Below, one piece after another: positions 2,425 to 12,593 of a stretch of 64,000 nucleotides of DNA. The notes beneath the pieces were generated by a model that saw nothing but the letters and a program-made list of their open reading frames with translations, had not been told where the DNA came from and did not search any database. Positions within the stretch are counted from its first letter, which is position 1, and each line of letters begins with the position of its first letter. The position numbers and the translations under genes were made by a program. This DNA comes from Candidatus Acidulodesulfobacterium ferriphilum (GTDB lineage Bacteria; SZUA-79; Acidulodesulfobacterales; Acidulodesulfobacteraceae), in assembly GCA_004195035.1 (NCBI GenBank), contig SGBD01000003.1, positions 124,001 through 188,000 of the forward strand, given 5' to 3'.

Positions 2425-2468
2425 TGGTGGGCTGTCCCGGTATCGAACAGGGAACATACTGATTAAGA
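2425..2468 (-). repeat. Decayed copy of the tRNA-Lys 3' end (old att site)
   Basis: Forty of 44 positions match the 3' end of the tRNA-Lys gene at 12518-12561, including the CCA end and the T-arm. The four differences break T-arm and variable-loop positions. Nothing tRNA-like continues beyond the anticodon loop. It is best read as the attachment-site scar of an earlier integration at the same tRNA. Confidence 0.8.
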
Positions 2469-2576
2469 TGCAACTTATCTAATAACGCAAGCTATTGATA
2501 TTGTTGAGTATTTACCATTGTAAAAAATGCTATGGGACGATTTTGAGACAAAAGACTTGAATTCTTTTTATTTTTT

Positions 2577-2951
2577 TTAAACCGCTATTTCTAATCCTAT
2601 TTTGCCGTATTCAACGGTGGGCATCGATTTATTGCCGCCTTCCGCCGTCTTTTTCATATCGATAAGGCCAAGGCTCTCAAGTATTTTAACGTCCGTCGCA
2701 ATGCTTTTTATATCCCTGCCGGCAAACCTTGCAAGTTCGTTAATGCTTTCGGGATGTTTTTCCTTTATTATATGGAGCAGTTCAAGCCTTTTTACCGTAA
2801 GCGCTTTTCTGAACCCTTCTATGCTTTCAAAATAAATTGCCTTTTCGCTTCTAACCCTTTCCCCTTTTTCGATAGCTTCGGCCGCGCTTGCAAAATCTTC
2901 CAGAACTGATTTAACGCTTTTTATTCCTATTTTAATCTTCTTAACTTTCAT
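2577..2951 (-). CDS. Winged-helix antitoxin/regulator (HVO_A0114-like)
   Basis: This 124-residue protein has a basic N-terminus, a central segment (KALTVKRLELLHIIKE) and a helix-turn-helix region (SINELARFAGRDIKSIATDV, then LGLIDM). This is the layout of the HVO_A0114-type DNA-binding proteins that pair with DUF6516 proteins. I chose the ATG at 2951 because AGAGG sits seven bases upstream and the gene then starts 4 bp after the partner's stop. A start 11 codons further upstream would overlap the partner. It is the second gene of a two-gene leftward operon and probably both neutralises the partner and represses the operon. Confidence 0.7.
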   Translation of the reverse strand: MKVKKIKIGIKSVKSVLEDFASAAEAIEKGERVRSEKAIYFESIEGFRKALTVKRLELLHIIKEKHPESINELARFAGRDIKSIATDVKILESLGLIDMKKTAEGGNKSMPTVEYGKIGLEIAV

Positions 2952-2955
2952 AATA

Positions 2956-3246
2956 TTAACCTCTTTTTTTATTTTTATAGACATTGATATCTTTCATAAA
3001 ATCCCCGATAAGCCGCCTAATAGTTTTAAATTTATAGTATTCCATACTCTTTCGGTTGTGCTTATGATCGCCTTTGCCTTCGGCATTGTCATAACCTATA
3101 ACCCGCTCTCCCTTTACTATATAAACGAGGGAATATTTGTAACCGTGAGGTTTGTCCGCCGAAACCGGCACCTGCCATAACTTGATTTCTATAATATTGC
3201 CGCTGTCTTCCCTGATTTTTATATGTTTTATTAATTTTGCTTTCAT
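2956..3246 (-). CDS. DUF6516-family putative toxin
   Basis: This 96-residue protein begins MKAKLIKH and contains the features of DUF6516 proteins: a hydrophilic beta-rich core (IIEIKLWQVP, YSLVYIVKGERVIGYDN), then GKGDHKHN and a C-terminal helix (FKTIRRLIGDFMKDI). The GDHKH segment supplies the conserved His cluster. The family is usually encoded beside a winged-helix partner, as here, and is regarded as a toxin; the biochemical activity is not established from sequence. The ATG at 3246 is preferred over an upstream one because it follows directly on an operator-like palindrome (3248-3266). Confidence 0.65.
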   Translation of the reverse strand: MKAKLIKHIKIREDSGNIIEIKLWQVPVSADKPHGYKYSLVYIVKGERVIGYDNAEGKGDHKHNRKSMEYYKFKTIRRLIGDFMKDINVYKNKKRG

Positions 3247-3247
3247 T

Positions 3248-3266
3248 ATTGGTATTATATACCAAT
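3248..3266 (-). promoter_or_regulatory. Operator-like palindrome of the toxin-antitoxin operon
   Basis: A perfect inverted repeat (ATTGGTAT, three bases TAT, ATACCAAT) lies one base upstream of the chosen toxin start codon. Its place and symmetry fit an autoregulatory site for the winged-helix partner. No Shine-Dalgarno sequence precedes this start, so the message may be leaderless or nearly so. Confidence 0.5.
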
Positions 3267-3371
3267 AATAATTTAGAGTCAAACTTTATATTAAATATCA
3301 AGAGCGTCTTTAATTATGAATATAAACGCAATTATCGATTAGTCTTGTTAGCACAATGTATGGCATTATTT

Positions 3372-3476
3372 ATGACCGATTTAATTCACCATCCCATATC
3401 AAAAGCCTTCGAGATTTTAGACGAGCGTTGCAAAATCGTTGCAGTGGATAATGAAGAAAAAATCAACAAACTTTAA
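3372..3476 (+). pseudogene. Probable tyrosine integrase 3' remnant (middle element)
   Basis: The reading frame ends with FMTDLIHHPISKAFEILDE and a lysine-rich tail, closing at 3476. This resembles an integrase C-terminus of the form MTxRYxHLAPxHISKAxEILD in which the stretch with the catalytic Tyr is partly deleted. The position supports it: it ends 16 bp before the tRNA-Lys repeat at 3493, as the intact integrase ends 5 bp before the intact tRNA. Similarity is short, so this is a moderate call. The rest of 3283-3702 holds only the att copy and AT-rich sequence. Confidence 0.4.
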
Positions 3477-3492
3477 AGCCGTTGATTTTACG

Positions 3493-3538
3493 TGGTGGGC
3501 TGTCCCGGGATCGAACCGGGGACCTACTGATTAAGAGT
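3493..3538 (-). repeat. Perfect 46-bp att repeat (left end of newest element)
   Basis: The 46 bases are identical to 12518-12563, the 3' half of tRNA-Lys(CTT) from the CCA end to the anticodon loop. Identity stops sharply on both sides. This is the expected left attachment site of an element that inserted at the tRNA and restored the intact gene at its integrase end. Confidence 0.93.
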
Positions 3539-3702
3539 AAATCCAATTAAATTTAATTAACATAGTAATAACAGGCAACGGCAGACAGACGCTTACTTTT
3601 CGGATTTTTATATTTTACCTTAAATTATCCTCTTTTATACCGTTTTTTAGAAAAAACTTTACCGAAACTTTACCGGTTTTTTAAATCGAGATTAATTCTT
3701 AT

Positions 3703-3888
3703 TCAAGGAAGTGAAATACCTAAATCTTTGCATATTTTACGGGCAAGATTATCGTCTATCTCGTTATGTCTTGGAACAGTAGAATGTTTATTTAAAGAAC
3801 GATTAAACCACCATGAATGATTACCGCCTTCACGTTCAAATTCGCAGCCGTTAGTCTTTAAGTGTTTTATAAGCTGCTTCCGTTTCAT
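3703..3888 (-). CDS. hicA: HicA-family mRNA interferase toxin
   Basis: The 61-residue protein has the HicA dsRNA-binding-like fold signature: an N-terminal helix (KQLIKHLKTNGCEFEREGG), then GGNHSWWF with the catalytic His at residue 24, and a C-terminal segment (STVPRHNEIDDNLARKICKDLGI) typical of the family. Its start codon overlaps the stop of hicB by 4 bp. It is the second gene of the hicBA operon, which lies between the left att site and the left 115-bp repeat. Confidence 0.9.
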   Translation of the reverse strand: MKRKQLIKHLKTNGCEFEREGGNHSWWFNRSLNKHSTVPRHNEIDDNLARKICKDLGISLP

Positions 3889-4088
3889 ATGGCTATAAGT
3901 TCCGTTTCATAGCCATTGCCGGCTTCTTTAATAGCTTCGCCGCGGTAAATTTCCAGAGCCTCTTTAAGGGCTGATTTTAAAGATACTAAAAGTTCTTCTT
4001 TAGTTTTTTCTTGGCAGTTTACGCCCGGGATTTCTTCTATCCAACCTATCCACCAGGGACCAGATTTTTTAATTATAGCAGTAAACAT
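3885..4088 (-). CDS. hicB: HicB-family antitoxin
   Basis: The 67-residue protein is a short HicB: a partially degraded RNase H-like fold with the usual WWIGWIEEIPGVNCQEKT and LLVSLKSALKEALEI segments. It lacks a separate DNA-binding domain at the C-terminus, so operon autoregulation may be weak or need the HicA-HicB complex. AGGGG lies upstream of the ATG. It is translated ahead of hicA, which would favour antitoxin excess. Confidence 0.88.
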   Translation of the reverse strand: MFTAIIKKSGPWWIGWIEEIPGVNCQEKTKEELLVSLKSALKEALEIYRGEAIKEAGNGYETELIAI

Positions 4089-4162
4089 TTTAACCCCTTT
4101 TTTAAATTTATTTAAATATATATCTTAAGTTTACATAAACTATTAACTTTTTGCAATTTTTC

Positions 4163-4277
4163 TTTTTTACTGTCCGCCCGGCGGACACCTCGAACACCTT
4201 TAAAATCCCTATAATCGATTTTAAGCCGTTTGATTTTTGGTTAATAGTAAATTACCTGTTTTAAGTTTATCGGGGCT
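4163..4277. repeat. Left copy of a perfect 115-bp inverted repeat
   Basis: All 115 bases are the exact reverse complement of 9440-9554. The repeat contains an internal palindrome (TGTCCGCC / GGCGGACA arms) at its outer end. It lies downstream of the repressor gene, in a region without genes. No flanking target-site duplication is visible, and no transposase is present. Confidence 0.95.
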
Positions 4278-4604
4278 TAAATCATAAATGCGGCGGTTCT
4301 TAAAGGGTAGATTTGATTATAAAAAGCGGTAATCGTCCTGTATGGACTAAAGATACCTTTTAAAGCTCTGGCAGGATTTAAACAGGCTAAAGCCTGCCGG
4401 TTAATCAACAGACAATTTATTAACGACAATCCAACAGCAAAAAGCCGCTATTGGATTGTCTAAAATTGCCTGCTACGCCTTATTTTACAGCGATAAAGCA
4501 TACTATTAAATAAGGTTGATAAACCTTTTAAATCCAGCGGAATCGGCGGCGGAAAAAATCTTTTTTTTATAAAAGGGGGGAGCAAAAGCAAAAAACTGAA
4601 AAGA
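4278..4604. other. Gene-free stretch inside the left inverted repeat
   Basis: No supported gene is present. The interval holds a short hairpin (CAGGCT, AA, AGCCTG at 4383-4396), a stronger hairpin at 4425-4460, and a T-run and G-run (about 4557-4580) just after the repressor gene that could help end its transcript. Confidence 0.6.
4425..4460. repeat. Hairpin with 10-bp perfect arms
   Basis: Arms GACAATCCAA and TTGGATTGTC enclose a 16-base loop, and an inner AGC/GCT can extend the stem. No U-run follows on either strand, so it is not a standard terminator. It could be a structured RNA, a protein-binding site or a recombination site in the element. Confidence 0.55.
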
Positions 4605-5423
4605 TTAATCATTATCAAAATTTTTAACTGTAGGTCTTGGTTTAATTGCGGCGATAACTTCGCCAATAATTCTAATATCCTCTTTTTTAAAATAAAAATC
4701 ATCATATACTAACCTTATATATTTAGCGGTTTCATAGTTTTCATTTACATATAAGAAAGCATAAAAAAGATTTTTTTTATAAGTATAATCGTGGATTATT
4801 TCAATATATCTGACTAACTTATCATTATTAGGTTTTTCAAGAATAAACAATTTTTTTGGAATTTGATGTCCTTTTCTAACTTCTTTTATGAAAAAATCAG
4901 AATAATCAAAATTATCTAAATACCTAATAATTAAATAATCGCCTGCAAAAGCGGTAGGAATTAAGGAATCGTCATTTATAACTACGGCGTAATAATTATG
5001 ACCGTTAGTTTTAAAATCTTCACGAAAAGGGTCGTAAAATTTCCTTTCATCAACAAGTAAATTTCCTTTATTTCTAAATTGCAAGAAATCTAAATCCTTA
5101 TCATTATCAATAAACCTGTCAGAAATTAAAAGTTTTAATTTATATTTTGGCGGAGTTTCCGGGAATAAATCAATTTCGGGGGTTAAAACTTTTCCAATTA
5201 ATTCTTTCTCTTTAGATATTTTTATCTCTAATGCTTTAAATATTTTTTTTATAGTTGAATTGCTATATTTTTGCTGATAAGATTCAGCAAGCCCTATTAA
5301 TGAACGAGTAATATTAGCCATTTCTGCAAGTTGAACCTGTGTTATGCCTTTTTTTATTCTTGCTCGCTTAATATAATCGATAATATCTTTATCTATTTGC
5401 TCTAAGGCAATAAGTTTTGTCAT
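4605..5423 (-). CDS. XRE-family repressor with S24/LexA-like C-terminal domain
   Basis: This 272-residue protein has an N-terminal helix-turn-helix (about residues 14-66: IKKGITQVQLAEMANITRSL). A C-terminal S24-type segment follows: VVINDDSLIPTAFAGDYLII places the likely Ser nucleophile at 153, and TAKYIRLV gives a candidate Lys at 234 before IIGEVIAAI. Its gene faces away from the replication operon across a 136-bp region with a promoter and palindrome. By position and domain plan it is the lysogeny-type master repressor of the element, possibly inactivated by self-cleavage during DNA damage. The usual Ala/Cys-Gly cleavage site is not obvious, so the last point is inference. Confidence 0.82.
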   Translation of the reverse strand: MTKLIALEQIDKDIIDYIKRARIKKGITQVQLAEMANITRSLIGLAESYQQKYSNSTIKKIFKALEIKISKEKELIGKVLTPEIDLFPETPPKYKLKLLISDRFIDNDKDLDFLQFRNKGNLLVDERKFYDPFREDFKTNGHNYYAVVINDDSLIPTAFAGDYLIIRYLDNFDYSDFFIKEVRKGHQIPKKLFILEKPNNDKLVRYIEIIHDYTYKKNLFYAFLYVNENYETAKYIRLVYDDFYFKKEDIRIIGEVIAAIKPRPTVKNFDND

Positions 5424-5450
5424 ATTTTTTGTTTTTTTAAATTATTTTAT

Positions 5451-5516
5451 TGACAATGTTAAATTTTATTGGCATAATTAATATTAATAACTAATGTTAT
5501 ATAATTTATAACATTA
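5451..5516 (+). promoter_or_regulatory. Promoter and operator between repressor and replication operon
   Basis: TTGACA at 5451-5456 and CATAAT/ATAATT at 5473-5479 (16-17 bp spacing) form a strong rightward promoter. Just downstream, at 5492-5516, is a perfect inverted repeat (TAATGTTATA, 5 bases, TATAACATTA). Related half-sites (AATGTTA, TTGTTAAA) occur at about 5456 and 5528. This is the expected layout for a repressor controlling the early operon. Confidence 0.65.
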
Positions 5517-5559
5517 TAGTTTATTTATTGTTAAATATTATATTTTAAAGGATATTAAA

Positions 5560-5757
5560 ATGCAAATCGAAAAACTTGAAAATTATTACACTCTAAGAGA
5601 AACAGCGGAAAAATTACGAATAAAACCGACGACACTTTATGGTTGGGTGCGGAACAAAAAAATAACTTGTTATAAAAACGGCAGAAAATATCTTTTTACG
5701 GATAAAGACATCTTAAATAAACTTAATAAAAATCGTATCAATAATGATAATGAATAA
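5560..5757 (+). CDS. Excisionase-like / MerR-type helix-turn-helix protein
   Basis: The 65-residue protein consists almost wholly of an HTH_17-type domain: YYTLRETAEKLRIKPTTLY followed by GWVRNKKITCYKNGRKYLFT. This matches small excisionase or AlpA-type DNA-binding proteins. AAAGGA precedes the ATG. It is the first gene of the operon opposite the repressor and overlaps the next gene by 14 bp. It differs from the second HTH protein beside the integrase, so one may be the excisionase and the other an early regulator. Confidence 0.72.
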   Translation: MQIEKLENYYTLRETAEKLRIKPTTLYGWVRNKKITCYKNGRKYLFTDKDILNKLNKNRINNDNE

Positions 5758-6061
5758 CGCCAACATAACGCCTGATTTTGACATAATCGAACTACTTAAA
5801 AGCAAAAAACTATCTTTAGATGAGTTAGGCTTATATGTGATGTTGTGGGCTATATCCGATAAATCGTTAATATTGCATAACATAACAGAATTAGCAAAGC
5901 TTGGGAACTGTGGCACAGATAAGGTTAGTGGACTAATCAAAAAATTAATCGAAAAGAAATTGTTAATAGAACGGCGCATAAACCAGCGGATATATTTTTT
6001 TAAAGTTATTCGTCCGGACGAAAACTATGAAACTGCTAAAATGGAGTTTTTAAAGCTATGA
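5744..6061 (+). CDS. Small winged-helix protein
   Basis: The 105-residue protein looks like a replication-organiser-type winged helix: KKLSLDELGLYVMLWAISD, then ITELAKLGNCGTDKVSGLIK, then a beta-wing (LIERRINQRIYFFKVI). It overlaps the gene before by 14 bp and the gene after by 4 bp (ATGA), so the three are probably translated together. A second ATG two codons downstream is an equally good start. Function is unknown; a helper of the replication initiator or a regulator is likely from context. Confidence 0.65.
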   Translation: MIMNNANITPDFDIIELLKSKKLSLDELGLYVMLWAISDKSLILHNITELAKLGNCGTDKVSGLIKKLIEKKLLIERRINQRIYFFKVIRPDENYETAKMEFLKL

Positions 6062-6960
6062 CAGACAAAACCGACATATTAGATTTTGACCAAAAATACG
6101 GTTATGTTCAAGTTCCTAACGTGCTTGTCCTGAATATGTCAAAACTTCAATTATCCGGTAATGAGCTTGCTTTATTGATAATTATTCGGATGTTCGCATA
6201 CCAAAGAAATTATAGCTTTCCGTCCTTAAAAACACTTCAAAAAATATCTGGTCTATCTCATCGAGGCGTCATCTATATTATTAAAACCCTCGAAAATAAA
6301 GGATATTTAGAAATAAAAAGAATTTCTCAAAAAAATAATTTCTACAGTTTCAAGCCCTTAAATGATTTATTAGAAAAGATTATGAATAATAATATAGATG
6401 AAGAGGTAGTCAAAAATTTTGACTACCCTAGTGCAAATTTTGCACTACCCCCAGTGCAAAATTTGCACCCGAATAAGAAGAATATAAATAAGAATAAAAA
6501 CACACACACAAAGAAAGAAGAAAAAGAAAGCGTGTGTGATGAAATCAAAAAAACAAAAACTTTTCAAAATACCGAACCGGCAATTATCGAAAACCTTTTA
6601 CAGAAAAACGGCGAAAAGGCAGTAATTGCCGCGAAGTATATCGAAAAGACATTTGCCGGACAGGCAATAAGAAATCCGGCAGGGCTTTTAATTAAAACCC
6701 TTGAACGTGGGACATATTCCGAATTGCCGCAGGAAACAAGAAATCTTGCCAGCATAAAAGCGGACATCGAAAGGCTTAACGATAAATATAAGGGCTTTTC
6801 CGTGTTTCAAGGGGAAAAGATAACAGAAATTTCAAATATCGGCGGCAGGATAGCATTTAGGACTAATGATATAACGAAGGATATGACGGTAACGCCGGCT
6901 AAAAGCTACGAAGAATTTGAAACATACCTGAATCGGCAAAAAGGCATAAATTCATCTTAA
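6058..6960 (+). CDS. Replication initiator-like protein with N-terminal winged helix
   Basis: The 300-residue protein starts with an HTH_36-type winged helix (about residues 18-100: LQLSGNELALLIIIRMFAYQ, PSLKTLQKISGLSHRGVIY, ENKGYLEI). A low-complexity Asn/Lys linker (about 110-160) and an unrecognised C-terminal domain (about 165-300) follow. This plan resembles plasmid and phage initiators such as lambda O: DNA-binding head, flexible linker, helicase-contacting tail. The linker DNA contains three palindromes (6406-6468), again as in lambda O where the origin lies inside the gene. The role as initiator is inferred; no helicase or polymerase is encoded nearby. Confidence 0.6.
   Translation: MTDKTDILDFDQKYGYVQVPNVLVLNMSKLQLSGNELALLIIIRMFAYQRNYSFPSLKTLQKISGLSHRGVIYIIKTLENKGYLEIKRISQKNNFYSFKPLNDLLEKIMNNNIDEEVVKNFDYPSANFALPPVQNLHPNKKNINKNKNTHTKKEEKESVCDEIKKTKTFQNTEPAIIENLLQKNGEKAVIAAKYIEKTFAGQAIRNPAGLLIKTLERGTYSELPQETRNLASIKADIERLNDKYKGFSVFQGEKITEISNIGGRIAFRTNDITKDMTVTPAKSYEEFETYLNRQKGINSS
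6406..6468. repeat. Three palindromes inside the initiator gene (candidate replication origin)
   Basis: Palindrome 1 has 10-bp arms GTAGTCAAAA / TTTTGACTAC (6406-6426). Palindrome 2 has 9-bp arms TAGTGCAAA / TTTGCACTA (6429-6447). Palindrome 3 has 7-bp arms GTGCAAA / TTTGCAC (6454-6468). Each has a single central base, and the last two share the same half-site, giving four GTGCAAA-type units. The block falls in the linker-coding part of the gene, so codon choice there is free to serve a DNA signal. Confidence 0.65.
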
Positions 6961-7066
6961 CGGCGGGTATAAAACTATTAACACCTTTCAAACAAGGGCT
7001 TAAAACGCAAATTAGAAAGGGTTTTAAAATATAATTTACATTAAAATAACAAAAAAAGGTGAAATT

Positions 7067-7339
7067 ATGAAAAAACTAATTTTAATCGCAGGGATAATAA
7101 TTACGGGATTAGCTTTATCCGGGTGCGCTAAAAATCCGGCTATGGTTTATCATCGTTATTCATACTACACAAAGCACCATAAGCAAGCTTATAGGGTTTA
7201 TGCGGCTTGCAAGAAAATTCCTGACTTCGTAAATCAAAAAAAATCAATAAATTTCGATGTGTCAAAAGAAAATAAGAATTGCTTTAACGCATATTATAAT
7301 ATTTTTTTTCACTTTCAGGGTAGGGGTTATGTACATTAA
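7067..7339 (+). CDS. EexN-like entry-exclusion lipoprotein
   Basis: The 90-residue protein has a lipoprotein signal (KLILIAGIIITGLALSGC) with lipobox LSGC and acylated Cys at residue 20. The mature part has two further Cys in AACKKIP and NKNCFNAYYN. That spacing and the NCxNA motif resemble EexN lipoproteins of conjugative plasmids, which block entry of like plasmids. It directly precedes VirB5- and VirB6-like genes; in IncW/IncN systems eex lies between virB5 and virB6. AAGGTG precedes the ATG. The family assignment rests on short motifs and context. Confidence 0.5.
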   Translation: MKKLILIAGIIITGLALSGCAKNPAMVYHRYSYYTKHHKQAYRVYAACKKIPDFVNQKKSINFDVSKENKNCFNAYYNIFFHFQGRGYVH

Positions 7340-7353
7340 TTAAAGGAGGATTT

Positions 7354-8145
7354 ATGAAAAAGCTATTAATTATCGCAGTTTTTACGGTTATTTTTGGAAT
7401 ATCAAGCAGTGCCTATGCGCAAATGGCGGTTTTGTCAGTTCCAAACCCGCAGTCGTTAGCAACGCAGGCTGAAACTACGGCAACGGCGATTAATACTAAA
7501 CTTCAAACAACTTTGCAGGACATAAGAAATGCGCAAGCGGTTCAGGAAGCGACTAATGCTTTTAACCAATTTCAAACATATCAGAACGACTACTACGAAG
7601 CGACCGGATTTTTGCAAAACTTAAAGCAATTAGACGGTGTAAGTAGCTTTTTGCAGAATTATACGCAATTTGTGCCGAGTGTTCAACTGAACACGCCTAA
7701 CGGAAATCTGGATCAGTCGCTTGTTAATTATGTAAATGGAATGGGGGCAAGCGATTTAAATGCGGCGAACCCTTGGGATAATGCAATAGGTGTAAATTCG
7801 ACGGCGGCGGACGCTCAGGCTATAAGTCAAGCCGCGATTAACAGCGAATCGTCAACGGCGGCATTAGACAGCAAAGAAGCGCAGACGGCTACTACGGCGG
7901 GACATTTAATATCAACGCAGGCTACAAGCGCAAACGGTCTTGACGCGGCAAGATTAAGCGCAAGCGCGGACGGCAAAATCATAGAATTATTAAGTGAAAT
8001 ACTTCAAAATCAGGCGGTAGAAAATCAGGCAAATGCGGCACAACAGGCGGAAACATTAAGGGCGAAACAGCAGGCAATATACGAAAGACAAAATAGCGAA
8101 CAAACAAGCAAATCTTTAGCTAAAAACTTTGCGGCGGGGTGGTAA
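7354..8145 (+). CDS. VirB5/TrbJ-like secreted protein
   Basis: The 263-residue protein has a Sec signal peptide (residues 1-22, cleavage at AYA-Q). The mature chain is Gln/Ala/Asn-rich and helical, with long coil-forming stretches (ETTATAINTKLQTTLQDIRN; QNQAVENQANAAQQAETLR). VirB5 and TrbJ, minor pilus-tip components of type IV secretion systems, have this build. An excellent AGGAGG lies upstream. It ends 2 bp before the VirB6-like gene. The call depends partly on its neighbour, because VirB5 proteins are poorly conserved. Confidence 0.55.
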   Translation: MKKLLIIAVFTVIFGISSSAYAQMAVLSVPNPQSLATQAETTATAINTKLQTTLQDIRNAQAVQEATNAFNQFQTYQNDYYEATGFLQNLKQLDGVSSFLQNYTQFVPSVQLNTPNGNLDQSLVNYVNGMGASDLNAANPWDNAIGVNSTAADAQAISQAAINSESSTAALDSKEAQTATTAGHLISTQATSANGLDAARLSASADGKIIELLSEILQNQAVENQANAAQQAETLRAKQQAIYERQNSEQTSKSLAKNFAAGW

Positions 8146-8147
8146 TT

Positions 8148-9245
8148 ATGAAAAAACTACTTATTTTAATAATTTTGTTTATATCGATAACGGCGGGAGT
8201 AAGGGCGGCTTATGCGCAGACGGCTACAACGGCGGGAAATACTACTGGACAAACAAATATTACGATTACGCAGTATCCGCAAATCGGCGTAACCTCGACG
8301 ATACCGTCAACATTCGGAAATCTAATGAATAATAATATTATGCCGTTAGAAAAAACGATACTGCCTTTTTCTTTTCTCGTGTTTTTGTTCGCAATGGCTA
8401 TAAGGCTATATTTAGGGGAAGAAAAAGGCTATATGAAAGAAATATTTTATATGATTTTCATAATGTCAATTTTGATTATGTATAACACTATTTTTCTATG
8501 GCTCAATTCAGTATGCGACGGCATAGCGCACGCTATAATGCCGGCAAACGAAGTTTCATTATTTTTAAGCTCGATACTTAATTGGAATCACCCGGGCATT
8601 AGCTTTCTTGCTTTTTCGTTATCCGGTTTTGCGGCAACGGCGGCGCTGACTCTTGCAAGCATTGCGATATGGATTCTTGAATGGCTAAGATATTTATTAC
8701 TTTCTTTTATGTATTTAGTGGGTCCGATTACGATAAGTTTATCGATGATACCGCCGCTCCGACCATTCCTTAAGGCTTGGATAAAAGATACGATAGAAAT
8801 AATGTGCTGGTTTATAGTTACTGCGGTTCTTTTCCAAGTCTTTAATACGATTCTATCGACGGGGAACACATACCCGTCTTTGCAAAATTTATCCCCTCTG
8901 GCAGTTGCAGGGATTTATACCTTTTTAGTCGTTCTGATAATTTTAACGCCATATCTGACATCAAAACTTTATCAAGGCGGAATGGGGGCTTTGGGGTCTA
9001 TTGCAAGCTATGCGACAATTTCTTTGATAACCGGCGGAGCTTCGGCGGGACTCGGAGCGGCGGGAGTATCGGGGGGCGGACTTGCCGGTAATTTAGGGGC
9101 TAAACTTGCCGGTAAGGGCGGAACGACAGCGGCAAGACACGCGGCGGAATCGGGGGGCGGGTATTCATCGGCACAAATACGGGCGGCGGCAGGCAGACGC
9201 ACAAATAAAAATCCATATAATAAAAGGGGGAACGATGAAGAATAA
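8148..9245 (+). CDS. VirB6/TrbL-like inner-membrane protein
   Basis: The 365-residue protein has an N-terminal signal (AYA-Q near residue 23) and then at least six hydrophobic segments between about residues 60 and 300. They include the conserved central part IAIWILEWLRYLLLSFMYLV and GPITISLSMIPPLRPFLKAW, typical of TrbL/VirB6 channel proteins. A Gly/Ala-rich C-terminal tail follows, ending basic. I chose the ATG at 8148, preceded by GGGGTGG, instead of a GTG three codons earlier. It overlaps the next gene by 11 bp. It would form the translocation pore of a type IV system, yet no ATPase or coupling protein is encoded in the element. Confidence 0.75.
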   Translation: MKKLLILIILFISITAGVRAAYAQTATTAGNTTGQTNITITQYPQIGVTSTIPSTFGNLMNNNIMPLEKTILPFSFLVFLFAMAIRLYLGEEKGYMKEIFYMIFIMSILIMYNTIFLWLNSVCDGIAHAIMPANEVSLFLSSILNWNHPGISFLAFSLSGFAATAALTLASIAIWILEWLRYLLLSFMYLVGPITISLSMIPPLRPFLKAWIKDTIEIMCWFIVTAVLFQVFNTILSTGNTYPSLQNLSPLAVAGIYTFLVVLIILTPYLTSKLYQGGMGALGSIASYATISLITGGASAGLGAAGVSGGGLAGNLGAKLAGKGGTTAARHAAESGGGYSSAQIRAAAGRRTNKNPYNKRGNDEE

Positions 9246-9450
9246 ACTTGAATTTCTTAAAAAGAACAGGGTAAATATTACATCGATTTTTATTTTAGCA
9301 TTTGCTTTGTATTATTATTTTGCCGGAAATATAAACGACGCTTTAGGATATATTCTTTTAGGAATTGTTTTAAATTTATTGAATTTGGCACATAATCACC
9401 TTAAACCAAAAGAAAACAACGGGGCTAATAAGCAAAATCAGCCCCGATAA
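9235..9450 (+). CDS. Small two-helix membrane protein
   Basis: The 71-residue protein has two hydrophobic segments (ITSIFILAFALYYYFAG and LGYILLGIVLNLLNL) between basic ends. I chose the ATG at 9235 because GGGGG precedes it; a longer frame upstream runs antiphase through the VirB6-like gene. Its last four codons and stop lie inside the right copy of the 115-bp inverted repeat. No family is recognised. Coupling to the virB6-like gene suggests an accessory role in the same membrane complex, or in exclusion. Confidence 0.6.
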   Translation: MKNKLEFLKKNRVNITSIFILAFALYYYFAGNINDALGYILLGIVLNLLNLAHNHLKPKENNGANKQNQPR

Positions 9451-9554
9451 ACTTAAAACAGGTAATTTACTATTAACCAAAAATCAAACGGCTTAAAATC
9501 GATTATAGGGATTTTAAAGGTGTTCGAGGTGTCCGCCGGGCGGACAGTAAAAAA
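9440..9554. repeat. Right copy of the perfect 115-bp inverted repeat
   Basis: It is the exact reverse complement of 4163-4277. It begins within the last codons of the two-helix membrane gene and ends in an A-run after an internal palindrome (TGTCCGCC, G, GGCGGACA at 9530-9546). It is followed by two further hairpins. Confidence 0.95.
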
Positions 9555-9562
9555 TTAAATTA

Positions 9563-9626
9563 TCGTGGCGAAACTGTTTCGCCACGAGAAAATTAAATCA
9601 TCGTGCGGACACTGTGTCCGCACGAT
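9563..9626. repeat. Tandem hairpins sharing stem base and CTG loop
   Basis: Hairpin 1 (9563-9587) has perfect 11-bp arms, TCGTGGCGAAA and its complement. Hairpin 2 (9600-9626) has perfect 12-bp arms, ATCGTGCGGACA and its complement. Both have the loop CTG and the same outer TCGTG/CACGA pairs, with different inner stems. Each is preceded by AAAATTAAAT, so the unit repeats at 38-bp spacing. Inner-stem changes are compensated on both arms, which implies selection on the structure. They lie just upstream of the gene at 9641. Confidence 0.8.
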
Positions 9627-9640
9627 GAAAGGGGGACGAT

Positions 9641-9916
9641 ATGAAAAACGAAAACAAGAAACAAAATTACAGGGTCATCGTGAAAATTAACGAAATCGTA
9701 ATAAGCTTTATAGCCGAAGACAAAGAACAAATGAGCGAACAGCTGAAATTTTTATACAAGGGAATAGATATTCCTAAGGAAAGATTATACAAGGAAGACG
9801 GGACGGACGGTATCGTCGAAGTTACCAATGATGTTATCGTTTCCGTTGTTAATGAAATTTTAGACTGCCACAGCTTCAGGCTACCTGAATATCAAAAATA
9901 TATCGAAGAAATTTAA
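9641..9916 (+). CDS. Hypothetical 91-residue protein
   Basis: I do not recognise this protein. It is soluble, highly charged and short, with a beta-rich start (YRVIVKINEIVISFIAED) and an acidic C-terminus (EYQKYIEEI). AAAGGGGG precedes the ATG at good spacing, and the codon pattern matches the neighbours, so it is likely real. It starts 15 bp after the tandem hairpins, so its expression may depend on them. It is followed by another small gene with the same GGGGGAACGATGA-type start context. Confidence 0.55.
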   Translation: MKNENKKQNYRVIVKINEIVISFIAEDKEQMSEQLKFLYKGIDIPKERLYKEDGTDGIVEVTNDVIVSVVNEILDCHSFRLPEYQKYIEEI

Positions 9917-9946
9917 ATATTCCGGGTCCGGAAAAAAGGGGGAACG

Positions 9947-10114
9947 ATGATAATTGAAAAAAAGGACATTAACAACATCGCAAATATATGTGATTTCTTT
10001 GAAAGCCTAAAATTTAAGTATTCGGAATTGGACGGATTATATGATTTATCGGAAGATGTTGAGATAAGCATTGATAGACTATTAGCCGCAATGGAAGAAG
10101 AAAAGGGGCAATAA
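9947..10114 (+). CDS. Hypothetical 55-residue acidic protein
   Basis: This short gene has AAGGGGG upstream of its ATG and its stop overlaps the next start by one base (TAATG), a common sign of translational coupling. The product is acidic and probably helical (NNIANICDFFESLKF, SIDRLLAAMEEEKGQ). It resembles no family I can name. The tight coupling to the Replic_Relax gene suggests a partner or regulator of that protein. Confidence 0.6.
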   Translation: MIIEKKDINNIANICDFFESLKFKYSELDGLYDLSEDVEISIDRLLAAMEEEKGQ

Positions 10115-10824
10115 TGGGCGCACATAAAAGGGTTGATTTTAGCGAAAGGGATAAACAATTATTATATCTTTTATATAAACATAGGTATTGTGATTTTACG
10201 GCTTTAACTATGTTGAATATTAAATATGATACTTTATATAGACGATTAAAGAAATTAATTAAATCCGATTATGTTAAAAAATTAAATTCTGAAAATATTA
10301 AAATCGAAATTTACAGCTTAACGCAAAAAGGCGAAAACTGGCTTACTCAAAACATCGAGCAGGAATTTAATAAACCGATTTTAAGTAAAATTAAAACATC
10401 GTCTTTATATAACTTTAATCATCACTTATTAATCGCAAGAATAGGCGCATTATTGGCAAGCAGAAATATCGATTATGAAATAGATTTAACCTGTAAAAAA
10501 GCATATCCAGAACTTAAAATAATACCGGATATAATCATTAAAAAATACGGCGGATTAATCTGCTTTGAAATCGAACTTGAATACAAAACGGCGGAAAAAT
10601 ACGCAAAGAAATTGTCGCAATTACAGAACAGCGCGGATATAAAAAAGTTAATATATTTGACACAGGGGAAGCCTGATAAATTACAAAATAAAATATCGAT
10701 TATAGACCGATATAAGAAGGGTAAAAGTATAGATGAAAGATTTATTGATAACGAAACGAAAAACAAAATAATATTTGTAGAATTAAATAATTTTATTCAG
10801 AATATAGACGAATTTATATCCTAA
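10114..10824 (+). CDS. Replication-relaxation (Replic_Relax) family protein
   Basis: The 236-residue protein has an N-terminal winged helix (about residues 8-80: SERDKQLLYLLYKHRYCDF, LYRRLKKLIKSDYVKKL). A nuclease-like domain follows with IIPDIII (Asp139), then CFEIELE (Glu152, Glu154) and Lys158, and the downstream helix EKYAKKLSQL. This PD-(D/E)xK-like arrangement and the winged helix are the hallmarks of Replic_Relax proteins found on plasmids and integrative elements, where they act near replication or transfer origins. Activity is not certain. A large hairpin lies 169 bp downstream. Confidence 0.75.
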   Translation: MGAHKRVDFSERDKQLLYLLYKHRYCDFTALTMLNIKYDTLYRRLKKLIKSDYVKKLNSENIKIEIYSLTQKGENWLTQNIEQEFNKPILSKIKTSSLYNFNHHLLIARIGALLASRNIDYEIDLTCKKAYPELKIIPDIIIKKYGGLICFEIELEYKTAEKYAKKLSQLQNSADIKKLIYLTQGKPDKLQNKISIIDRYKKGKSIDERFIDNETKNKIIFVELNNFIQNIDEFIS

Positions 10825-11211
10825 AAAAGAACTAAAAAAATCACACACAAGAACGGACGGAGAAAATAAAAAGAAAATGAAAGAAACGAAAAAGATAAAA
10901 AATAATTCAAGTTTTGGCGGAAAAAAGATAAAAAATACCGTTCCGTTTTTCGTATGTTGCAGGTCGGAAGGGTATTTTTAGGGCAAAAGGCACTGTTCCC
11001 CTACTCCCACTTAGTAGGTGGTCGGGGAGTTTAAAAAGCCAAACTTCCCGACCACCTACTAAAAGCGTGTGGGAGTAGGGGAACAGCAAAGGCAAAAGCA
11101 GAAGCGAAAGACAAAAGCAAAAACCAAAGCAAAAGACAAAGGCAAACTGCGAAAGCAAAATTGAAAAAAAATTATTAATTATAAAAATAACTTCTACACG
11201 GAAAAAAAATT
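10825..11211. other. Gene-free stretch with repeats and a large hairpin
   Basis: No supported gene is present. The left part is purine-rich with two copies of an AAGATAAAAAATA motif (about 10890-10940). The centre is a 94-nt hairpin (10993-11086). The right part (about 11087-11160) is a G/A/C-rich run of imperfect CAAAAGC/CAAAGGC units. The whole has the look of an origin or transfer region beside the Replic_Relax gene. Confidence 0.6.
10993..11086. repeat. 94-nt hairpin, candidate origin or transfer site
   Basis: The outer 18-bp arms (CTGTTCCCCTACTCCCAC and complement) are perfect. A 6-base bulge (AAGCGT) on the right side follows, then 22-bp inner arms with one mismatch, closing on an 8-base loop (AAAAAGCC). 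The stem is GC-rich in an AT-rich context and lies outside genes. Such structures serve as single-strand origins, nick-site hairpins or recombination sites; which applies here cannot be told from sequence. Confidence 0.8.
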
Positions 11212-11403
11212 ATGCTGATAAAAATTAAAGAGGTTGCCGGAATGTTAGCGATGAACCAAACAAGCATTTACAAACTTGTTTATCGTAAAGCTATTCCTTA
11301 TGTCAAAATAGGCGGAGCTTTAAGGTTCGATAAGGATAAAATTATCGCTTGGATTAATCAGAATAGCTGTGATATGATTAATCCGAAAAGTAAGCGTTTG
11401 TAA
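11212..11403 (+). CDS. Excisionase-like helix-turn-helix protein
   Basis: The 63-residue protein is a single HTH_17/AlpA-type domain: IKEVAGMLAMNQTSIYKLVY, then AIPYVKIGGALRFDKDKI and AWI. It lies 23 bp upstream of the integrase in the same direction, which is the usual place for an excisionase (directionality factor). The Shine-Dalgarno sequence is weak, so expression may be low or coupled to an upstream transcript. Confidence 0.78.
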   Translation: MLIKIKEVAGMLAMNQTSIYKLVYRKAIPYVKIGGALRFDKDKIIAWINQNSCDMINPKSKRL

Positions 11404-11426
11404 ATGTCGTTTAAGGGGGTGAATCA

Positions 11427-12512
11427 ATGGGCATTTACAAAAAAGCTAACAGCAATAATTTTATGATGAGCAAAACGGTAAACGGTTTGACTTATTTTAA
11501 ATCCAGCGGCACAAATTTAAAAATGGAAGCAAGGGCAACTTTCGACCGCTGGGTCATCGAGCTTAAAGAACAAATCCGGACCGGCGAGCCGGTAAAGCAG
11601 AAACAAGAACCTATAATAAATAATTCTACTTTTTCGGAGCTTGCCGATAAGTATTTGGAATATACCGCCGGACGCTTAAAAAGCCATAAAGGGCTTTTCA
11701 CTTTTTACAAAAAACTAAACGGCTATTTCGGAAATAAAACCTTAACGACTATTTCAATAGAGGATGTCGAAAATATGCAGTCCGATATTTTAAAACAGGG
11801 GCTTTCAAACGCATATGCAAACAGGTTATTAATTCATTTTAAAAGAGCGTTAAAAAAAGCGGCCGATTGGGAAATAATATCCGACGATGTTCTTAATAAG
11901 TTTAAAAAGGTTAAACTCGTAAAAGGGGAAACAAAGCGGTTAAGGTATCTGTCCGAAGATGAGGCGCAAAGGTTTATCGGTAATTGCGATATTAATTTAA
12001 AATCTATCGTAATAACTGCTTTAAATACCGGTATGCGTAAATCGGAAATTCTGCATTTAGCTTGGGACAGGGTAGATTTAAAGAACCGGATAATCCTTTT
12101 AGATAAAACAAAGAACGGCGAAAGGCGAGAAATACCGATAAATCAAACACTTTACGATGTCCTGCTGCAGCTGCCGAGGCATATAAGCGGCTATGTATTT
12201 GCAAATCCTAAAACCGGCAAGCCTTACAATAACGTTAAAAAGAGCTTTGGATCGGCGTTAAGAAAAAGCCATATTTTTGATTTTAGGTTTCACGATTTAA
12301 GGCATACTTTTGCAAGCTGGCTTGTTATGGGCGGGGTAGATTTAACGACCGTTAAGGAACTGTTAGGGCATAAGGATGTCAGGATGACTTTAAGGTATTC
12401 TCATTTAGCGGCAAGTCATATATCTAATGCCGTTAAGGTTTTAGAAAAAAACTTTACCGTTTCTTTACCGCAGGAACAAAAGCAAAAATCCGAATATCTT
12501 GAAAGTGTTTAA
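11427..12512 (+). CDS. int: Tyrosine recombinase/integrase of the tRNA-Lys element
   Basis: The 361-residue protein has an N-terminal arm-binding part, a core-binding SAM-like domain (about 67-165: STFSELADKYLEYT) and a catalytic domain. The catalytic set is complete: Arg204 (NTGMRKSEIL), Lys227/229 (KTKNGERREIP), His289 and Arg292 (FHDLRHTFASWL), His315 (LLGHKDV) and Tyr324 (TLRYSHL). AGGGGG precedes the start. The stop lies 5 bp from the CCA end of tRNA-Lys, its evident target. It should be fully active in sequence terms, unlike the two broken relatives near 2300 and 3450. Confidence 0.95.
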   Translation: MGIYKKANSNNFMMSKTVNGLTYFKSSGTNLKMEARATFDRWVIELKEQIRTGEPVKQKQEPIINNSTFSELADKYLEYTAGRLKSHKGLFTFYKKLNGYFGNKTLTTISIEDVENMQSDILKQGLSNAYANRLLIHFKRALKKAADWEIISDDVLNKFKKVKLVKGETKRLRYLSEDEAQRFIGNCDINLKSIVITALNTGMRKSEILHLAWDRVDLKNRIILLDKTKNGERREIPINQTLYDVLLQLPRHISGYVFANPKTGKPYNNVKKSFGSALRKSHIFDFRFHDLRHTFASWLVMGGVDLTTVKELLGHKDVRMTLRYSHLAASHISNAVKVLEKNFTVSLPQEQKQKSEYLESV

Positions 12513-12517
12513 ATATC

Positions 12518-12593
12518 TGGTGGGCTGTCCCGGGATCGAACCGGGGACCTACTGATTAAGAGTCAGTTGCTCTACCGATTGAGCTAACAGCCC
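12518..12593 (-). tRNA. tRNA-Lys (anticodon CTT)
   Basis: A 76-nt cloverleaf with encoded CCA. Acceptor arms GGGCTGT and ACAGCCC pair perfectly, the D-arm is GCTC/GAGC, the anticodon stem is ACTGA/TCAGT with loop CTCTTAA (anticodon CTT, codon AAG), and the T-arm is CCCGG/CCGGG with loop TTCGATC. Its 3' 46 bases are repeated exactly at 3493-3538. It is the intact reconstituted target gene at the integrase end of the element. Confidence 0.97.

Follow-up and report, generated by a model that had tools for sequence, protein, structure and literature searches.

A homogenised inverted repeat as the probable border of a toxin-antitoxin slot in a tRNA-Lys integrative element of Candidatus Acidulodesulfobacterium ferriphilum

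A perfect 115-bp inverted repeat in a plasmid-derived integrative element of Candidatus Acidulodesulfobacterium ferriphilum is best explained, at a probability of about 0.6, as a passive patch of homology: a homogenised intergenic sequence bordering a slot for toxin-antitoxin modules. Both copies would belong to a repeated intergenic sequence that is found across a family of such elements. Recombination in or beside the repeat would let the modules in the slot be replaced, non-reciprocal exchange between the left and right copies would keep the two identical, and a crossover between them would occasionally invert the 5.2-kb interior; host homologous recombination is the presumed agent of the exchange. 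The evidence, all of it read from sequence, consists of the distribution of copies, the slot itself, mosaic breakpoints, identity within genomes, and one recombinant junction. Coordinates without a prefix refer to the window, which is the whole stretch of 64,000 nucleotides that was analysed.

The repeat pair and its host element

The repeat pair lies inside a 9.0-kb integrative element (3493-12517) at tRNA-Lys, bounded at its true ends by the tRNA-Lys att repeats (3493 and 12518). As in other integrative elements, these are direct repeats (45 bp, exact), the second of them inside the tRNA gene, and the integrase adjoins the att site at the right end. The features discussed below are as follows:

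3493-3537 (+): attL, a 45-bp exact copy of the 3' part of tRNA-Lys
3703-3888 (-): hicA toxin gene, in the slot (PF07927, 8.7e-13)
3885-4088 (-): hicB-like antitoxin gene, in the slot (weak UPF0150 match, and pairing with hicA)
4163-4277 (-): left repeat copy, reading toward hicB, at the inner edge of the toxin-antitoxin slot
4168-4188 (+): GC palindrome module (TACTGTCCGCC-C-GGCGGACAC), with its right-copy counterpart at 9529-9549(-)
4370-4538 (+): structured non-coding element with covariation (model R3), next to the left copy on its inner side
6058-6960 (+): replication initiator (DnaD_N / O-like), with internal palindromes at 6405-6468
6961-7032 (+): plain linker copy, between the initiator gene and a 90-aa ORF (7067-7339)
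9440-9554 (+): right repeat copy, between a 71-aa ORF and a 91-aa ORF; orthologue at L022:6651-6764 (91%)
9456-9518 (+): part of the repeat homologous to an intergenic linker family (linker model built without the repeat, E 0.0028)
9563-9628 (unstranded): two tandem GC palindromes adjoining the right copy, terminator-like for leftward transcription
11427-12512 (+): tyrosine integrase (PF00589, 1.4e-32)
12518-12593 (-): tRNA-Lys (CTT), containing attR (12518-12562)

Aligned as 4163-4277(+) and 9440-9554(-), the arms agree at 115 of 115 bases in inverse orientation; with the arms extended to 4158-4277 and 9440-9559, identity is 98% over 120 nt. The perfect inverted repeat described in an earlier, sequence-only reading of this DNA is real; when the same 14 kb was shuffled 50 times (Markov), the longest perfect inverted repeat had 20 bases. 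The inverted arrangement arises because the operons of hicBA and of the 91-aa ORF run in opposite directions. That reading also had the arms enclose exactly a block of regulator, initiator and VirB-like genes. The regulator and initiator genes are indeed inside (a CI-like repressor with HTH_3 and Peptidase_S24, an HTH_17 protein, the DnaD_N/HTH_36 initiator, and further genes), and HicBA, a Replic_Relax/MobC-like gene, a xis-like gene and the integrase are outside; but the right copy extends into the 71-aa ORF (9235-9450), taking in its stop and last few codons, and so is not placed exactly at a gene edge, and searches of Pfam, NCBIfam, PHROGs and PDB sequences gave no support to the VirB-like label for 7067-9245. 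An artefact of assembly is hardly credible: 115 bp is close to the k-mer length that short-read assemblers use, but both flanks are seen in independent MAGs (the right in L022, the left in L023 and L020) and the gene order matches that of L025 and L026.

With its tRNA att repeats, tyrosine integrase, xis-like HTH gene, MobC-like gene and initiator of its own, the element resembles integrative and mobilizable elements (PMC5704250), and differs from them in that its genes include no recognisable relaxase of any named MOB family. Its match to the MobC-family replication-relaxation model (43.5 of 200 bits) falls far under the cutoff, and no TraI-type helper relaxase was found in the element's own genome. 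By analogy with SGI1 (PMC5389848), it may be a plasmid-derived satellite with a few transfer genes. Degenerate att copies at L018:12798 and L018:18425 (window ~2425) show that this tRNA-Lys has received several elements in tandem, and window 2425-3493 and L018:12798-18468 are remnants of two further tandem elements, one with the 3' fragment of an integrase.

Several palindromic features accompany this backbone. A contig of genome G001 (L021, G001:C167) is a conjugative plasmid contig with a MobF relaxase and TraD, and its repressor-initiator-263-aa ORF backbone matches that of the window element at 82%; the two palindromes inside the initiator gene (6405-6468) are conserved there at L021:11186-11249. 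Between the MobC-like and xis-like genes, a hairpin at 10985-11095 (33-nt arms, 82% complementarity, extendable) is conserved at 87-90% in L022, L025 and L026, and is a candidate transfer origin or other cis site. The idea that the 115-bp repeats themselves are the ends or the origin of a replicating or transferring form, raised in part (as ends of a replicating form) by the sequence-only reading, is very improbable. It would suit their position on either side of the initiator gene and the presence of palindromes, but the 115-bp form is absent from L025 and L026, complete elements that keep both initiator and integrase, and it persists in decayed remnants in which no initiator was detected (L023, L029), some of them beside toxin-antitoxin genes; the real ends are the att repeats. 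To judge from lambda O-like and RepA_N-type initiators, the palindromes within the initiator gene are the more plausible candidate for an origin, and the 10985-11095 hairpin is the better one for a transfer site.

Anatomy and distribution of the repeat

In the direction of its downstream gene, the repeat falls into three parts. The final codons and stop of the 71-aa ORF (AGCCCCGATAA) come first, then a linker-like stretch, and then the GC palindrome followed by an A-run (on the other strand a T-run, here termed the T-end). The GC palindrome module also stands alone at other gene junctions in relatives. The linker pattern, CAGGTA...TTAAC...CTTAAAA...ATTTTAA, recurs between genes of these elements: at the junction of the initiator and the 90-aa ORF it is found also in the plasmid contig of G001 and in L025, and in the complete elements L025 and L026 a plain linker follows the 71-aa ORF, at the position occupied by the 115-bp form in the window and L022. 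A model built from plain linkers alone recovers the window copies modestly (E 0.0028); the putative homology of repeat and linker is statistically modest (E 0.003-0.015), and is backed by position as much as by score.

A conserved RNA fold of the repeat itself was considered and found unsupported, since consensus folding of repeat and linkers together gave three pairs only, with zero covariation. The region of the right copy folds strongly (z -7.2) with the adjacent palindromes included, and folding is weaker (z -3.0) for the left copy together with the hicB leader. In the tandem palindromes at 9563-9628 the stems differ and pairing is kept, with partial conservation at L022:6615-6645. A promoter scan did no better than shuffles (26 found, 31 expected). 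The repeat may act as a leader or an intercistronic hairpin.

A search of other genomes and plasmids, which had been proposed along with the first description, was productive only in part. About a dozen clear copies were found, all of them in this bacterial family, of which 30 genomes were searched (a search of the phylum yielded these 30 and no others), and a genome-contig search for the repeat gave seven MAGs; the viral contig, phage and plasmid collections searched hold none. The sample of relatives is small and consists mostly of MAGs, and a complete element with both copies is present in G000 alone. A third copy in the same genome (repeat bases 2-86, 95%; C3:121512-121596) lies outside the window, in the adjacent tRNA-Lys element; it follows another hicBA pair directly, at ~700 bp from the att site of that element, nearly equal to the 670 bp between the window's left copy and its own att.

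Orientation follows the neighbouring genes. The copies are co-oriented with the downstream gene at the window's left (hicB) and right (91-aa ORF) positions, in both copies of L020, and in L022, L023 and L028, the exceptions being L018 and L027, where the repeat stands behind hicA rather than in front. The T-end faces a toxin-antitoxin module in seven copies (window left, both of L020, L023, L028, L018 and L027). We regard it as very doubtful that the copies are a MITE or a pair of insertion-sequence ends that transposed the interior. Short dispersed copies, some truncated near base 86, would fit such an origin, but the copies occupy orthologous places (the right one also in L022) and are not a general chromosomal repeat, and, as had been noted at the outset, there is no transposase among the ORFs of the element and no target duplication apparent at the edges.

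Exchange at the slot and between copies

The left-type copies form the inner edge of a cargo slot that adjoins attL, in the order attL, toxin-antitoxin module, repeat. In the window the slot holds one hicBA pair, and in L023 and L020 a different one; L020 has in addition an antitoxin-like ORF followed by a RelE-like ORF (RelBE). Judged by these contents, HicBA and RelBE modules replace one another in the slot. Divergence changes sharply at its border, and different modules stand behind a common flank, as at borders of modular exchange. Between G027 (L023) and G001 (L020), hicB, hicA and the promoter are 93-96% identical and the adjoining repeat 79%, a step significant for the promoter alone (p 0.002) and for the whole cassette (9e-7; Fisher tests, which treat sites as independent). 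Between the window and G027 (L023), the repeat is 95% identical, the promoter 82% and the att flank 80%, and hicB and hicA, at 47-48%, are not alignable as close relatives. These mosaic breakpoints are those expected from cassette exchange by recombination at or near the repeat.

The copies also group by genome and not by position. The left and right copies of the window are 100% identical and the two copies of G001 (L020) 99.1%, one base apart, and copies from different genomes are 77-95% identical; treating sites as independent, Fisher tests of the window pair against its orthologues gave p 0.0016 and 0.029, and that for G001 gave 2e-7. The outer flanks of the left type are common to the window, L023 and L020 (84-96%), and those of the right type to the window and L022 (86-88%); since the flanks of each type are common to several genomes, both positions appear older than the genome splits. 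Agreement within a genome together with difference between genomes points to copies that exchange sequence, and such exchange within a genome is the simplest account of their identity. The sequence-only reading had offered recent duplication or gene conversion, and the grouping by genome bears this out. A single recent duplication from the right junction to the left end, in which identity reflects recency and nothing is exchanged any longer, is an unlikely alternative. In its favour, codons from the end of the right-hand 71-aa ORF are present in the left copy, so that left-type copies derive from a right-type one; 115 identical bases need little time, and identity within genomes could equally reflect one recent duplication per lineage. 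Against this, left-type copies with the same outer flank occur in G027 and G001, and right-type copies in G018, so that the positions look older than the splits, and the pattern of matching within a genome recurs in G001.

Recombination between the copies would also allow inversion. L020 has the order att, RelBE, repeat, 3' tail of the 71-aa ORF, HicBA, repeat, structured element, repressor, and its repeat at L020:3724-3838 joins the tail of the 71-aa ORF on one side to the left-type flank and RelBE on the other. This junction, in a low-coverage MAG contig where the joining of RelBE, repeat and 71-aa ORF could be chimeric, is as an inversion between left and right would produce, and is evidence that the two positions have recombined in a relative, not that the window inverts. 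The earlier proposal that the 5.2 kb could invert gains from this junction but not from the complete elements L025 and L026, which show the gene order and orientation of the window only and are without the 115-bp form; no inverted complete element was found among the relatives examined. Recombination between the terminal inverted repeats of insertion sequences causes inversion (PMC3004938), and non-allelic homologous recombination between the present inverted copies would likewise flip the interior, with the differences that these repeats are not transposon ends and that an inverted complete element was not found. A regulated site-specific switch, in which a recombinase flips 4278-9439 so that either the operon of the 91-aa ORF, MobC and int or hicBA ends downstream of the long rightward operon, is quite improbable: it could draw on the perfect inverted copies and the inversion-type junction in L020, but no invertase lies beside the repeat, the sole recombinase found in the element is the tRNA-Lys integrase, and complete relatives without the pair keep one orientation.

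A structured neighbour and the meaning of the border

Immediately inside the left copy, the element at 4370-4538 is ~170 nt long and has relatives at 69-78% identity. RNAalifold on a sequence-only MAFFT alignment of 8 copies predicted 62 pairs, 29 of them with compensatory changes. By a separate count 95.8% of cells are paired; none of 500 shuffles reached any of five measures, and slid controls collapsed. With this pairing, and with no significant match in Rfam, there is good support for regarding the element as a candidate new mobile-element family of RNA or ssDNA, and it is possibly the more novel find of the two. The R3 model has matches in 16 of the 30 family genomes, often in plasmid or mobile-element settings: one copy (L021:9110-9265) lies beside the repressor in the plasmid contig of G001, and others lie near genes read as TraD-like or VirB4-like ATPase, or ParA, and elsewhere. 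In most copies a CG-rich stretch and a T-run follow on the same strand. The two long arms have in common a motif at the tip (GACARC-loop-GYYGUUAUC, containing a C.A mismatch), so that one putative protein-binding site may be present twice. We give an even chance to a broader proposal: that the left copy borders an undescribed structured RNA (or ssDNA) family of this lineage's plasmid-derived mobile elements, often near repressor or transfer genes, and that repeat, RNA and repressor make up a single control block, with cargo that is exchanged, and at times inverted, via the repeat.

Linker sequences at module borders are an idea from phage genome biology. Modular mosaicism is known from the genomes of lambdoid phages (PMC9836094, PMC2327257), and the border described here is like modular phage linkers in its short conserved sequences, its sharp changes of divergence and its probable exchange of modules by recombination; it differs from them in lying in an integrative plasmid-derived element, in having two inverted, homogenised copies, and in bordering a toxin-antitoxin slot. 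As a homogenised border, the striking perfect inverted repeat would be explained without a new enzyme, and the element would offer, in an uncultured lineage, a traceable case of toxin-antitoxin exchange at a fixed slot of a mobile element, in which border, recombinants and homogenised copies are all legible in the sequence.
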